The notes under the pieces are model-generated. The model saw only the letters and a program-made list of their open reading frames with translations, was not told the origin of the DNA and did not search any database. From contig NZ_CP119147.1 of assembly GCF_029167645.1 (NCBI RefSeq), positions 6,962,501 through 7,026,500 on the forward strand: DNA of 64,000 nt, given 5' to 3'. The stretch is from Streptomyces sp. AM 2-1-1 (GTDB lineage: Bacteria > Actinomycetota > Actinomycetes > Streptomycetales > Streptomycetaceae). The translations under genes were made by a program, and so were the position numbers. Shown here one piece after another: positions 52,202-59,059 of this stretch. Within the stretch, counting starts at the first letter, position 1. Every line of letters begins with the position of its first letter.

Positions 52202-52993
52202 GTGCCCGCGCCCCGCACGGAGCGGCCGATCCGGACCGGGTACGCCCGCACCTCGACGGCCCGCCAAGAACTGGCGAGCCAGCTCGAAGCCCTTCACCGG
52301 GCGGAGTGCCACAAGGTCTTCAAGGAGCAGATCAGCACCCGCATCAAGGTCCGGCCCGAGCTGGAGAAGGCTCTCGCCCTGGCCCACCAGTTCGAGGAGG
52401 CCGCGCCCGAGACGCCGGTCATCTTCACCGTCCATGAGCTGAAGCGTCCGGCCAGGAACGCGGCCGAGCTGATGACCCTTTCCGCCGAGCTCCAGGACGG
52501 CGGCATCCAGCTCGCACTCCTCACCGGGCCGCTCGCGGGGATCTACGACCCCAATGGCATGGGCGCCTTGTTCTTCGCCGTGCTCGCCGTGGCTGGGCAG
52601 ATTGAGCGCAACTACATCCGGGAGAAGACCCTCGAAGGCCAGGTCATCGCCGCGTCCAAGGGAAACCGCGGCGGGCGCCCGAAGGTCATGGACGACGACA
52701 TGCTTACCTTCGCCGCCGCACTCAAGGACAAGGGCGTCCCCGTCCCCGACATCGCCAAGAAGCTCACCATCAAGGTCGGGAAGAACGCGGGCAAGTCCCC
52801 CTCGGTCGCCTCGCTCTACCGGGCGCTCGCGGAAGCCGAGGCCGCAGCGGTGGACGATGACCTGCCGCTGCGGCCCAAGCCCGTCCACATCCGTCGGCCC
52901 GAGGACCCGCTCACTGCCGAGGAGATCGGCCTCCGCGAACGGCTCCAGTCCCAGCCCCATCCGAACGCCGAGATCCGCAACTGGCAGCCGTGA
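52202..52993 (+). CDS. serine resolvase/invertase (Tn3-type)
   Basis: A 263-residue site-specific recombinase from a GTG. GYARTSTARQELASQLEAL carries the catalytic serine (Ser18); the middle holds FTVHELKRPARNAAEL and LAVAGQIERNYIREKTLEG, the resolvase core and long helix; the C-terminus after KGNRGGRPKV is a helix-turn-helix. Tn3 resolvases resolve cointegrates at res sites. With the transposase fragments 4 kb away it probably derives from the same or a related transposon, now split by the SDR/TetR/MFS module. It appears intact, although its true start is uncertain. Confidence 0.85.
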   Translation: MPAPRTERPIRTGYARTSTARQELASQLEALHRAECHKVFKEQISTRIKVRPELEKALALAHQFEEAAPETPVIFTVHELKRPARNAAELMTLSAELQDGGIQLALLTGPLAGIYDPNGMGALFFAVLAVAGQIERNYIREKTLEGQVIAASKGNRGGRPKVMDDDMLTFAAALKDKGVPVPDIAKKLTIKVGKNAGKSPSVASLYRALAEAEAAAVDDDLPLRPKPVHIRRPEDPLTAEEIGLRERLQSQPHPNAEIRNWQP

Positions 52994-54761: not shown

Positions 54762-54930
54762 CTCCCGAAACACGCCAGGCAGGTGATCGTCATCATCAGT
54801 CGGGCATCGTGACCAAGACGGATCCCGGCCCGCCCACTATCGCCCTCGGGATCCGCCAACCAGTTCCCTCCACCTGCCGACGACCTGCACCGAAGAGAGC
54901 ATCACCGGCCAACTGCGTTCTTCGGCCACA

Positions 54931-55692
54931 GTTGTCCTGTGTCATCGAACTTTGAGCGATTGCCACCGAAGCTTGAGCGGTGGGAGGTCGGCCAGGCTCT
55001 GGCCGCCGAGTGGTGTCAGTGGTGGGCGGCAGACTGCGCGCATGGATGCCTCTCATGACACTGATCGCTGTGACCGCACTGGGCTGGTGTGGGTTCGGTC
55101 GATGGGCGGCCCCTTGATCGTCGTTCCGGAGTCTTCGGTAGGCGCCTGGGGTGGATGCACGGAAGACGGTTCTGTCCTTGGTGACGCCGATGGCCGTGAT
55201 GACTACGACCGCGCCTGTGAGGTGGAGGACTTGGCCGGTGTGATCGCCGTGGGAACGGGCACCGCTACTGCTCTTGTCCTGGCCGATGAACCTGCCAAGA
55301 CGTGCTTCCTGCCGGAGACACTGCTGTTCGTGCGGTGGCTGGCCGCAGACTCCGAGGCCGAGGTGTTCACGGCAGCCGCGGCGGTTCTGGCCGATCCGGA
55401 CACCGCGTGGGAGGACAGCGGACTGTGGGTCACTGACGGCCCGGCAGTGTTGATGGACTCGGCCGAAGCGGGTGCCGATCCGGGAGTGAACTATCCCCAC
55501 GGGGGCCACTCGGATCAGGCCCCCGTGCAGCTCCCGGCAGGTCAGTGGAAAGTGCGCGCGGTCCATAGAAGCGGCGACTTTCCATGGGTCGGCTTGGTGC
55601 AACTCGTCGTCGACAACGGTCGCTCCTGACGCTCGGCCCCTACCGCTCAGACTTCGGTGACAATCGCTCAAAGTTCGGTGACACAGGACAAC
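54931..55692. mobile_element. transposon-like cassette with about 56-bp inverted repeats around an immunity gene
   Basis: Left end 54931-54986 and right end 55637-55692 are inverted repeats with 50 of 56 bases identical, starting GTTGTCCTGTGTCA. Each end contains two copies of a 20-bp motif of the form GTCACCGAA--TGAGCG, like the tandem transposase-binding sites of IS21- or Tn5053-type ends. TCGGCC occurs just outside both ends (54922-54927, 55695-55700), a possible target duplication. The 762-bp interior has only the Imm21-like gene and no transposase, so it would have to be moved in trans. Confidence 0.75.
55042..55629 (+). CDS. Imm21-family-like immunity protein
   Basis: A 195-residue acidic cytoplasmic protein. 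VRSMGGPLIVVPESSVGAW, DDYDRACEVEDLAGVIAVG and LVLADEPAKT with FLPETLLFVRWLAAD match the Imm21 immunity family, whose members neutralise polymorphic toxins; the family match is from memory. No toxin gene is adjacent, so it is an orphan. The ATG at 55042 is chosen because the family similarity starts about 20 residues in; upstream sequence is the inverted repeat. The stop lies eight bases before the right inverted repeat. Confidence 0.75.
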   Translation: MDASHDTDRCDRTGLVWVRSMGGPLIVVPESSVGAWGGCTEDGSVLGDADGRDDYDRACEVEDLAGVIAVGTGTATALVLADEPAKTCFLPETLLFVRWLAADSEAEVFTAAAAVLADPDTAWEDSGLWVTDGPAVLMDSAEAGADPGVNYPHGGHSDQAPVQLPAGQWKVRAVHRSGDFPWVGLVQLVVDNGRS

Positions 55693-55739
55693 AGTCGGCC
55701 TCCCGCGCGCCCCGCTGCCACCCACCCAATCTCCTGATC

Positions 55740-55782
55740 GGGTTAAATTACGAGTTAAATGACGGGGTAACTCTGCTACTCT
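55740..55782 (+). promoter_or_regulatory. tap promoter with three iteron-like 12-bp repeats
   Basis: GGGTTAAATTAC, GAGTTAAATGAC and GGGGTAACTCTG follow head to tail (55740-55775), then TACTCT (55777-55782) as a -10 box and GGAGG before the GTG at 55804. The repeats cover the -35 position, so a protein bound there, possibly Tap itself, could regulate the operon. Confidence 0.5.
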
Positions 55783-55803
55783 CCGGGGCGGAGGTGCACC
55801 CCT

Positions 55804-58020
55804 GTGGCGAGTGAAGAAGAGCTGTTCGCGAACATCGACGCCCTGCTGGAGGAGGAGCCGCAGCTCCCGCCCCCGGCGGAACGTGCCCGGCTGCGCGAGG
55901 CCGCCGGCATCACGCAGGCTCGTCTCGCGCTCGCGCTCAAGACATCGACGCAGACGGTGAAGAACTACGAGAACGGCCGCTCCGAGCCCAAGTCGCCGCG
56001 CCTGGAGGCGTACCAGCGACTGCTGAACGGGTGGGCGGCGAGGTACTCAGCCTCCAGCGCATCGGCCACCGCCCCGCCGGCGGCACCACAGCCGAAAGCG
56101 CCCGACGCGTCCGGCATTCCGGCGTCCGGCACTCCGGCGTCCGCCGCTCCCGGCACCGTCGAGCCGGAGGTCGCCACGCAGGTCCGAACCGCGCCCGACG
56201 CGTCCGGCATTCCGGCGTCCGGCACTCCGGCGTCCGCCGCTCCCGGCACCGTCGAGCCGGAGGTCGCCGCGCCGGCCCGAACCGCGCCCGGCACTCCTGC
56301 GCGCCCGCCCGCGCACTCCCGTCACCCGGAACCCCGTAAGGCGAACACCTCGATCGACCCCAGGTTCCCGCACGGCCCGCTTGTGGTGCTGGACGGCGAC
56401 GGATCCGCGTACGGCGTCGACGGGATCGTGCTCGACTGCCCCGCCACGACCGTCCCGGATCTGGTCGAGTGGACCCTCGAGGAGTCCGGCCTGGGGGCCG
56501 CGAAGCTCAACCGGTACGGCACGGACTCCGATCCGCTGATCGTGCTCACGGCGGCGGCCGCGGTGAAGCTCGGGCTGCCGGAACGTCTGGAGGGTCCGGA
56601 GCAGCGCCGCTCCCTGCGCCTCCCGGACGACCACCCGGTCGTCAAGCAGGTCGCGAGGGCGAAGTGGCAGCTCACACGGCGCGGCTTCGGCCCGTGGGCG
56701 CGGATCTACCGCAAGGCTCAGGGACGTGAGCGGCAGTGCGTACAACTGGCGGTCCTGTCGTGGGACGCCCTCGACGAGCGGTCCTGGTCCGGCGTGAGCG
56801 AGATGGAGCCGCCCGACATCGCGCGGGTGTTGGGCCTCTACGCCCAGCGGGTCATCACCCCACGCGGTTCGACCGCCGTGTGCGGCCTGGAGCTGATGAC
56901 GGCCCTGCGCCCACCGACGAAGCCGGAACGCGACACCGAGACCGGCAACTGGGTCTCCGGCCGCAACCCGGGGTCGCTCGGGACGGAACCGATCGACCCG
57001 GCGCCTCCGGAGGCCACCCCCGAGCACCCCGTCGTCGTGGACAGCGGGTGGACCGGCGGGTTCCTCGACGAGGAGGCGTACCAGTGGGTGCGGCCGGTGG
57101 ACTCGCTCAGCGACGAGGAGTGCCTGCTGCCCTTCGCGGTCGGCCTGGACCTCAACACGGCGTTCCTCGCGGCGGCGGCGCGCCTGGTCGTCGGCCTGTC
57201 CGCCCCCGACCATTTCCACGCCCCCACGTTCAACCCGAAGATCCCCGGGTCCTGGCTGGCCGACCTGAGTGGCATCGAGCCGGACCCGCGCCTCCCGTCG
57301 CCGTTCACGCCCGACGGCGCCCGTCCGACGGGTCCGGCCTGGTACCAGACGTACACCCTCGCCTACGCCCAGGAACTCGGCCACGACGTCCACCCGATCG
57401 AGGCGTACCTGCGCCGCGAGACCGGTGCCTACCTGGACCCGTGGCACGACCGGCTCAAGAGCGCGTACGTCGACACCCTCGCCGACCTCGGGGTCACCCG
57501 TGACCTGGACGACGCGCGGTTCCTCGCCGCCATGGAGCGGCACAAGCAGACCGACCCCGCCCTGGCCGCCGTCCTGTCCGCCATCAAGGCCACGGTGAAG
57601 GGCGGCGTCGGCAAGCTCCGCGAGCGCCCCCAGGGCAGGAACTATGAGGACGGCGAGAGGTGGCCCGCCCTGGAACGCCCGACCTGGCGCCCCGACATCC
57701 GCGCCGCCGTCATCGCCAAGGCACGGGTCAACATGCACCGCAAACTGGTCAACATGGCGAAGATGACGGGTCTCTACCCGCTCGCCGTCCTGTCCGACTG
57801 CGTCGTCTACCCCTCGCCGGGCGAAAGCCCTCTCGACTTCCTCCCGTACGCAGCCTCCGGCAAACCCCAGCCCGGCGGCTTCCGGCTCGGTCTCAGCCCC
57901 GGCCTGGCAAAACTGGAGGGCGTCCAGTCGATGCTGTGGGCGGTCGACCTGATGGAACGGGGACTCAACCCCGCCCGGCACATCAAGGGCGGCGACGCCG
58001 TCTTCGACGAAGGCGAATGA
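55804..58020 (+). CDS. tap: telomere-associated protein Tap
   Basis: A 738-residue protein, close to the usual Tap length. Residues 27-70 form an XRE-type helix-turn-helix (LREAAGITQARLALALKTS). A Pro/Ala linker with a 31-residue tandem repeat follows (from residue 100). The large C-terminal part resembles Streptomyces Tap, which binds telomere 3' overhangs and recruits the terminal protein to patch chromosome ends. Two acidic motifs, DLNTAF (Asp449) and LSDCVVY (Asp665), look like polymerase A and C motifs. GTG start with GGAGG nine bases upstream. A small gene and tpg follow in the same direction. Confidence 0.9.
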   Translation: MASEEELFANIDALLEEEPQLPPPAERARLREAAGITQARLALALKTSTQTVKNYENGRSEPKSPRLEAYQRLLNGWAARYSASSASATAPPAAPQPKAPDASGIPASGTPASAAPGTVEPEVATQVRTAPDASGIPASGTPASAAPGTVEPEVAAPARTAPGTPARPPAHSRHPEPRKANTSIDPRFPHGPLVVLDGDGSAYGVDGIVLDCPATTVPDLVEWTLEESGLGAAKLNRYGTDSDPLIVLTAAAAVKLGLPERLEGPEQRRSLRLPDDHPVVKQVARAKWQLTRRGFGPWARIYRKAQGRERQCVQLAVLSWDALDERSWSGVSEMEPPDIARVLGLYAQRVITPRGSTAVCGLELMTALRPPTKPERDTETGNWVSGRNPGSLGTEPIDPAPPEATPEHPVVVDSGWTGGFLDEEAYQWVRPVDSLSDEECLLPFAVGLDLNTAFLAAAARLVVGLSAPDHFHAPTFNPKIPGSWLADLSGIEPDPRLPSPFTPDGARPTGPAWYQTYTLAYAQELGHDVHPIEAYLRRETGAYLDPWHDRLKSAYVDTLADLGVTRDLDDARFLAAMERHKQTDPALAAVLSAIKATVKGGVGKLRERPQGRNYEDGERWPALERPTWRPDIRAAVIAKARVNMHRKLVNMAKMTGLYPLAVLSDCVVYPSPGESPLDFLPYAASGKPQPGGFRLGLSPGLAKLEGVQSMLWAVDLMERGLNPARHIKGGDAVFDEGE
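56101..56286 (+). repeat. 93-bp tandem repeat inside tap
   Basis: Unit one at 56101-56193 is repeated at 56194-56286, with identity for most of the unit and divergence only at its end. Each unit encodes a 31-residue stretch starting PDASGIPASGTP, in the linker between the helix-turn-helix and main domain. Confidence 0.8.
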
Positions 58021-58107: not shown

Positions 58108-58500
58108 ATGAGCACTCCCGACGCCCCGCCCCCGCGGTGGCCCCTCCCCACTGCCCCACACACCCATGACCCGGTGCTGTTCGCACGGGCGATGCGGGAC
58201 ATGCGCCTGACCTGGCGCGCCCGCGGGATCCTGGCCGAACTCGCCACCGGCTACCCGCCGGGCCAGGAGCCCAAGATCGGTGACCTGGTCTCCCTCAACC
58301 GTGACCAGCGTGTGGCCGCCGAAGGCCGCGCGGCCTTCAGCAAGGCGGTCGGCGAGTTGCGCGCCGTCGGCTACCTCGTCCTCGCCACCACCAGAGCGTC
58401 GGGTGTCGGCGAGCGCCTGGTCGTGGACCTCACCCAGGCCGCGGACGCCCGGATGATTTCTGAGGGTGCCGGGTGGAGTTCGTACACCGACGGGAGCTGA
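58108..58500 (+). CDS. small winged-helix-like protein between tap and tpg
   Basis: A 130-residue protein with a predicted winged-helix pattern: DMRLTWRARGILAELATGYPP, then AFSKAVGELRAVGYLVL as recognition helix and wing. AAGGAG lies about 15 bases upstream of the ATG. It stands between tap and tpg in the same direction, and tpg starts five bases after its stop, so it is part of the end-replication operon. A regulatory or DNA-binding helper role is inferred. Confidence 0.72.
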   Translation: MSTPDAPPPRWPLPTAPHTHDPVLFARAMRDMRLTWRARGILAELATGYPPGQEPKIGDLVSLNRDQRVAAEGRAAFSKAVGELRAVGYLVLATTRASGVGERLVVDLTQAADARMISEGAGWSSYTDGS

Positions 58501-58504
58501 CGGG

Positions 58505-59059
58505 GTGGGGGAGATCGAGGAAGCCATCGAGCGGGCGGACCAGGAGACGTTCACCCGCGAACCGCCCAAGGGACTCCCGGCGCGTATCAACTTCCTGCTG
58601 GGACGGTTGAAGACCACCCAGGCCGTCGCGGCGGAGATCGGAGTGAGCAGGCGCTCGGTGGAGCGGTACCGCACCGGCGAGCGCAAACGCCCGCCCCGAG
58701 CCATCGCCGAGCGGATCGATGCGGCCGTCCGTGCCCGTTGGCAGCCGAGGGTCCGGGGGCGCCGACGGAAGCGGGCCGGGACCGCGACCGGCATCACCGT
58801 CGAGACCCGGGCCCGTTTCGGTTACACCGCGCCGGTCGGCACCACCGACGACGGCCGGATGCGCCGCCTGACCGTCCACCTCCCCCCGGAGCGCGCCCGC
58901 CGGCTGCTCGACGCGCAGCAACAGGGCGCCACCGACCAGCAGATGCGGGAGATCGTCGCCGAGGGACTGCAGGAGGTGTACTTCAAGGACGGCGGACGCC
59001 GCGCCGCGGGCCTCGAAGTCGCCCTCACCGACATCGACTACTTCGACGTCTCCTACTGA
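58505..59059 (+). CDS. tpg: telomere terminal protein Tpg
   Basis: A 184-residue protein, the standard size of Streptomyces terminal proteins, which attach covalently to chromosome 5' ends and prime fill-in synthesis. A helix-turn-helix (TTQAVAAEIGVSRRSVERYR) is followed by a very basic stretch (RVRGRRRKRAG) and a helical C-terminus ending DIDYFDVSY. The GTG at 58505 is chosen because it gives the exact family length and has GGGAG eight bases upstream. The attachment residue cannot be chosen by eye. Confidence 0.9.
   Translation: MGEIEEAIERADQETFTREPPKGLPARINFLLGRLKTTQAVAAEIGVSRRSVERYRTGERKRPPRAIAERIDAAVRARWQPRVRGRRRKRAGTATGITVETRARFGYTAPVGTTDDGRMRRLTVHLPPERARRLLDAQQQGATDQQMREIVAEGLQEVYFKDGGRRAAGLEVALTDIDYFDVSY

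Follow-up and report, generated by a model that had tools for sequence, protein, structure and literature searches.

An imm21 cassette inserted upstream of tap is a probable member of a non-autonomous Tn7-like element family common in Streptomyces

Mobile insertion cassettes (MICs) are exemplified by MIC231 of Bacillus cereus, and integron gene cassettes form a pool of varied single genes. The MICs of qnrD and qnrS2 are treated in PMC3913671 and PMC5444012. For Tn7-like transposons, the sections of PMC8649781 on which we draw describe a clade dominated by actinobacteria and without a characterised member, and those of PMC7188733 give a TnsA-like gene in a table and nothing on tap-site insertion. 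The main text of PMC10293859 does not mention telomere, recA, Actino, linear plasmid or non-autonomous, and a search of the open-licence literature turned up no account of Tn7-like elements at tap or of Tn7-like cassettes with a single gene. Here we describe a short cassette in a stretch of 64,000 nucleotides from Streptomyces sp. AM 2-1-1, analysed as a whole and called the window. The cassette is one of a family of small non-autonomous elements, Tn7-like in kind, that is widespread in Streptomyces, and we consider it very probable that the unit is a non-autonomous Tn7-like mini-transposon moved in trans.

The element proper is 758 bp long (54933-55690), slightly shorter than the 762 bp given by an earlier sequence-only reading; its outer sequences are TGTCCTGTGTCA...TGACACAGGACA, with TGTCC...GGACA as outermost bases. 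The inverted repeats which that reading had noticed are real, the arms (54928-54984 and 55639-55695) being 57 nt long, 89% complementary and 654 nt apart, and the two motif copies reported for each end correspond to two repeat units of ~20 bp, 21 bp apart. The features of the locus are as follows.

54928..54932, no strand: left copy of the 5-bp target duplication ACAGT (flank comparison)
54933..55690, no strand: non-autonomous Tn7-like cassette, 758 bp (arms, ends, duplication)
54933..54980, plus strand: left end, 2-unit L-type, repeat units at offsets 0 and 21
55042..55629, plus strand: imm21, 195 aa, product matching the Imm21 immunity-protein family (Pfam PF15589, E 4.1e-52)
55643..55690, minus strand: right end, 2-unit L-type
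55691..55695, no strand: right copy of the target duplication ACAGT
55691..55803, no strand: 113-bp spacer from the insertion to the tap start codon (102-142 bp at ten other tap loci)
55804..58020, plus strand: tap, telomere-associated protein gene, the target gene (NCBIfam NF047542 equivalog, 1103.8 bits, cut-off 600)
58466..59059, plus strand: tpg, telomere terminal protein gene (NCBIfam NF047541 equivalog, 284.7 bits, cut-off 90)

The ends appear Tn7-like, with several ~20-bp repeats of putative transposase type and outer TG...CA, and a 5-bp target duplication, as in the Tn7-like family, abuts both of them. The hexamer TCGGCC, which had been proposed as the flanking sequence, does occur near both sides, but it was ruled out as the target duplication, because ACAGT abuts the ends, a second copy of the cassette has ATGAA instead, and the length of 5 bp recurs in the family. 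As had been stated before, imm21 is the only gene inside and the list of open reading frames (ORFs) holds no transposase ORF there, so that the cassette, like a MIC, carries a passenger gene between transposon ends without a transposase. The TnsB, TnsC, TnsA and TniQ/TnsD genes that define an autonomous Tn7-like member are absent from it, and it is therefore filed as a non-autonomous Tn7-like derivative. A serine resolvase-type gene (PF00239) lies at 52202-52993, ~2 kb from the cassette, with no link to it shown.

The genome of the strain consists of two contigs of 7.13 Mb and 81,774 bp, in which four matches to the end (E ≤ 0.001) form two elements, one in the window and one on the small contig; the repeats of the window are thus not due to chance. 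Between the two copies there are 8 differences over 757 compared bases, and the small-contig copy, flanked by the duplication ATGAA, has the opposite orientation relative to its neighbouring tap. Its imm21 is split by a ~12.3-kb insert with 5 bp (GGAAG) common to both sides of the break. This insert carries TniA/TniB-like genes, and it was rejected as a helper of the cassette because its right-hand end is unlike the family ends. Resolvase-like and alkyl-sulfatase-like ORFs were also read by eye in it (within 53961-67014 of the 81,774-bp contig).

With a strict end pattern (31 bases, at most 3 mismatches), the own genome was the single match among 295 genomes, which first suggested a private repeat, a finding that the sequence-only reading had named as evidence against itself. 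The suggestion was overturned by a looser pattern (at most 1 mismatch), which matched 104 of the 295 genomes of the genus, the own genome included, with 0 matches of the reversed-pattern control. When genomes were sampled across the class, 6 of 197 matched, all from the own genus (16 sampled), and none of the 181 genomes of 89 other genera did. Plasmid records with similar ends came from Streptomyces (13/14) and Embleya (1/14), and viral contigs had no match to a related exact end pattern. A repeat model was built from 118 sequences (1.51 Mb), namely 100 loci taken among the looser-pattern matches listed, 15 plasmid loci, two stretches of the small contig and the window; loci are numbered with the prefix L below. 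At threshold 10 it found 459 units, compared with 8 in the reversed sequence, the model having been trained on the same loci. Most family ends have two units or three, placed at offsets 0, 20/21 and 50-52. Identical 5-bp flanks were present in 25 of 62 nearest opposed end pairs and lacking in 37, and when any opposed pair within 15 kb was allowed, 33 perfect 5-bp duplications were obtained, the window's included, with a cross-locus chance of 32/12,399. These 33 pairs span 246 to 4342 bp (median 761 bp), and 20 later loci, 17 from the looser-pattern listing and 3 from the class-wide sample, added 4 more perfect pairs.

Most of the 33 perfect pairs enclose a single likely gene; there are several in L016, L019 and L090, and the cassette of L127 has no ORF of 50 aa. 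We selected 30 other cargo ORFs by codon-position GC, one of them from L189, in a set that leaves out the ORFs of L090, L119, L024 and the repeat copy L154 as well as ORFs resembling IS transposases in L087 and L122 (recognised by eye). The Pfam cut-off was reached by 9 of the 30, with epimerase, thioredoxin, NAD-binding, DUF4238, glyoxalase, Gly-rich, methyltransferase, YjbR and HAD matches; four stayed below it, and 17 had no match at E ≤ 0.01. The same YjbR cassette occupies two places in one genome (L153:5995-6624 and L154:5988-6616, with duplications GTACG and CGACC), which looks like recent movement, and three adjoining cassettes within one outer duplication GTCAC (L016:9001-13342) may be mobile together, as one array. 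A plasmid of Streptomyces anulatus has family ends, the left one less clear, around an annotated aminoglycoside phosphotransferase family gene (L012:10055-11117).

The varied cargo bears on the proposal of the sequence-only reading that the cassette is a mobile immunity unit. The motifs WGG and YDRAC in the imm21 product, residues read by eye, fit the WxG and YxxxC signature of Imm21 given in PMC3482391, and the sections of that paper used here associate Imm21 with polyimmunity loci and with a toxin of the HNH fold. The Imm21 of the cassette would presumably guard against an HNH-type nuclease toxin. In a dedicated immunity-gene cassette system, selection would collect orphan immunity genes as protection against rivals; in keeping with this, the cargo here is Imm21, a Pfam scan of the five neighbouring ORFs of the window gave no toxin family match, and imm21 is present twice in the genome. 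The second copy is, however, interrupted, none of the other 30 cargo ORFs, including the nine above the cut-off, matches an immunity family in the Pfam scan, and no terminal family end surrounds the Imm21 relatives in the three plasmid records read out of 30. We therefore judge such a dedicated system very unlikely and regard the immunity cargo as incidental on present evidence. What stands of the proposal is the transposon-like, non-autonomous nature of the cassette, and its dedication to immunity is not supported; likewise, the ends do recur elsewhere, as the proposal foresaw, around other genes and around full TniA/TnsB-type transposons, and no other immunity gene was recognised between them.

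Many of the insertions recur at nearly constant distances upstream of four genes, namely tap (102-142 bp), recA (203-234 bp), a DUF6233 gene (52-62 bp) and a small unnamed gene (62-74 bp), with autonomous elements present at the tap and recA sites; the last three of the four genes emerged when the flanks of 37 complete elements were compared for common neighbours. The window cassette sits at the recurrent tap site: its 113 bp to the tap start codon compare with 123 bp for the small-contig copy, 116 bp in L074 and 118 bp for the autonomous element L160. These four are the loci with an element at this spot among the 12 loci of the first set with a tap match; the other eight (L014, L090, L099, L139, L146, L149, L156, L159) have none there. 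From a tap alignment scan of genome contigs, the best 80 of at least 514 loci were kept, nearly all of them from Streptomyces, and 54 were scorable, having the start together with 200 bp or more of upstream sequence. Six of the 54 carry an end 115-142 bp upstream (L164, L165, L175, L186, L189, L237), those of L165, L175 and L186 being weak matches; the scorable loci otherwise showed an inner unit of L164, the far end of L189 and three weak, unrelated ends (L170, L173, L198). Among tap loci whose start was not scored, three ends occurred, all in L239, whose insertion lies 102 bp upstream of tap, and the reversed control gave 3 ends over all 80 loci. Within the stretch examined, L074, L164, L165, L186 and L237 showed no partner end. 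For the site of the L164 insertion, L170 and L174 have an uninterrupted stretch with one TCAGG (by eye, compared with the tap side of L164 alone). For the window insertion itself, the empty site by which the sequence-only reading proposed to check it was not found among the loci compared, where the left flank gave short matches only and no contiguous relative.

Insertions upstream of recA lie at 222, 228 and 234 bp (L022, L085 and the autonomous L117); four loci match recA, and these are three of them. The small unnamed gene has an element upstream in 7 of 11 matching loci (not in L020, L116, L136, L137), and the DUF6233 gene in 6 of 15, seven of the 15 being without an end nearby; in L071 and L072 the distances to the DUF6233 gene are 23 and 84 bp, with uncertain gene starts. 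Among the 20 later loci, recA and the small unnamed gene have one insertion each, at 203 and 74 bp respectively, and L271 has a partial tap match with no end there. Single cassettes were also seen 152 bp upstream of a lon-like gene (L147) and 195 bp upstream of an aconitase-like acnA (L114), both named by eye, and these genes are possible further sites.

In Tn7, the tnsA-side end adjoins glmS. We typed the ends of 28 elements, with L165, L186, L071, L072 and L273 left out, as two-unit or as three-unit with one unit at offset 50-52; the three-unit end is on the tnsA/tnsB side in L160, L158, L117 and L164. Fourteen asymmetric elements lie at the four recurrent sites, and in 12 of them this tnsA-type end adjoins the target gene, the exceptions with a distal three-unit end being L022 and L122, and the lon and acnA cases raise the count to 14 of 16. 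The family thus shares with Tn7-like elements a preferred attachment site, expressed in four recurrent sites and a fixed proximal end. The imm21 cassette has two like two-unit ends, which agrees with its opposite orientations at the two tap sites of the strain, and it gives no information on which end faces the target.

The autonomous relatives indicate what kind of machinery could serve these ends. L117 is an 8.2-kb stretch between family ends whose 5-bp flanks are not identical; inside it lie a GNAT gene, a weak match to TniQ, and genes for a TniB ATPase and a Mu-transpos_C transposase, the last interrupted close to its start by other insertions. A plasmid protein search, in which seven loci were read from 40 of 1,074 records listed, yielded six annotated Tns loci, each with a TnsA-like protein and a Mu transposase C-terminal protein and five of them with an ATP-binding or TniB protein; the seventh, L160, carries no annotation. 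Among the seven loci, both ends with identical flanks were present in L160 (CTGGG) and L158 (GCCGG), one end in L156 and L159 and none in L157 and L161; L162 has two ends with three or more units each, at the start of the record. The TnsA-like Actin match in L160, whose tnsA forms two ORFs in the ORF list, scored 177 bits (cut-off 110), and L160 is 85%, 82% and 44% identical to L117 in TnsB, TnsC and TniQ, respectively. The tap scan added L164, in which one end was seen and which encodes TniB, a TnsA-TnsB fusion and a TniQ that passes the cut-off. Mu-transpos_C and TniB are over the cut-off in L117 and L164, whereas TniQ is below it in L160, L117 and L158, over it in the Rhodococcus locus L161, and without a profile match in L156 and L162. 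Two TniQ-like frames seem to follow TnsC in L164:1-890, the first matching the TniQ profile and the second with zinc-finger-like cysteines (by eye). Sorting of TniQ by target was not seen, the TniQ proteins of the tap-site elements L160 and L164 being 34% identical, below the 44% between L160 and the recA-site L117; TniQ is the selector to be expected, and we infer its tie to the site.

The Tn7-like genes inside family ends with perfect duplications in L160 and L158 support the earlier view of a non-autonomous mobile unit. They also count against a mobile insertion cassette moved by an ordinary IS, with an IS21-type IstA/IstB or a Tn3-type transposase, and not by Tn7-like machinery. Members of the IS21 and Tn3 families can have 5-bp duplications and repeated or inverted ends, which agrees with such a helper, and one locus, L020, holds an annotated istA/istB pair; no terminal family end adjoins this pair, which was ruled out as helper, and the fixed upstream sites and the end orientation fit Tn7-like elements, so that we hold this explanation to be very unlikely. 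The IstA helper with family ends suggested by the sequence-only reading was thus not found, and the helpers that were found are Tn7-like. No relative of the L117 transposase was detected in the own genome (E ≤ 1e-5, a search without a positive control), and the helper is accordingly absent, diverged or lost. That no helper was found there would suit a decayed former full transposon, its tns genes deleted internally and the remnant now immobile. Against this, two near-identical copies on two contigs with different 5-bp duplications suggest that the small form itself moved, which makes decay very improbable.

Our preferred explanation thus remains the Tn7-like mini-transposon moved in trans. The comparison of ends shows that those of the window cassette and those of the transposons with TnsA-TnsB-TnsC and TniQ-like genes form one end family, and from the sequences we infer the movement of the cassette. 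TnsB from an autonomous relative would bind the ~20-bp repeats in trans, TnsA and TnsB would excise the cassette by cut-and-paste, and TnsC with a TniQ-type selector would direct its insertion to a site upstream of the target gene. The gene carried, here imm21, would ride as a passenger, as would unrelated genes in other cassettes. We lean slightly towards a wider proposal, in which Tn7-like cassettes, mobilised in trans and mostly with one gene each, form a pool common to the genus Streptomyces, and TniQ-type selectors deliver them to a few upstream harbours, among them the telomere-maintenance gene tap of linear replicons. If this is true, the pool would in effect be a Tn7-based system for sampling genes, resembling integrons, and through a tap harbour genes could hop between linear plasmids and chromosomes.

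The end signature in about a third of the sampled genomes (104/295) often surrounds short cassettes of varied genes, elements without a transposase that transposase-first surveys of Tn7-like transposons would miss, and the recurrent tap site ties cassette mobility to linear replicons. It can now be tested which selector chooses which gene and how single genes spread among antibiotic producers. The cassettes resemble integron gene cassettes in holding varied single genes, sometimes side by side (L016), and differ from them in their ends, their 5-bp duplication and the class of enzyme. With the actinobacterial Tn7-like clade, as far as the sections of PMC8649781 used here describe it, they and their relatives share a TnsB-type transposase, a TnsC-type ATPase and ~20-bp site arrays at both ends. 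The elements in those sections were delimited on contigs with a Tn7-like transposon and have median lengths of 14-29 kb, whereas the Streptomyces pairs have a median of 761 bp and mostly lack tns genes; no tap, recA or DUF6233 upstream site is named there for the clade, of which the helpers are candidate members. In comparison with MICs, the Streptomyces cassettes share inverted ends, a passenger gene, no transposase and a presumed movement in trans, and they are set apart by Tn7-like ends with repeated ~20-bp units, a very varied cargo and many fixed upstream sites.
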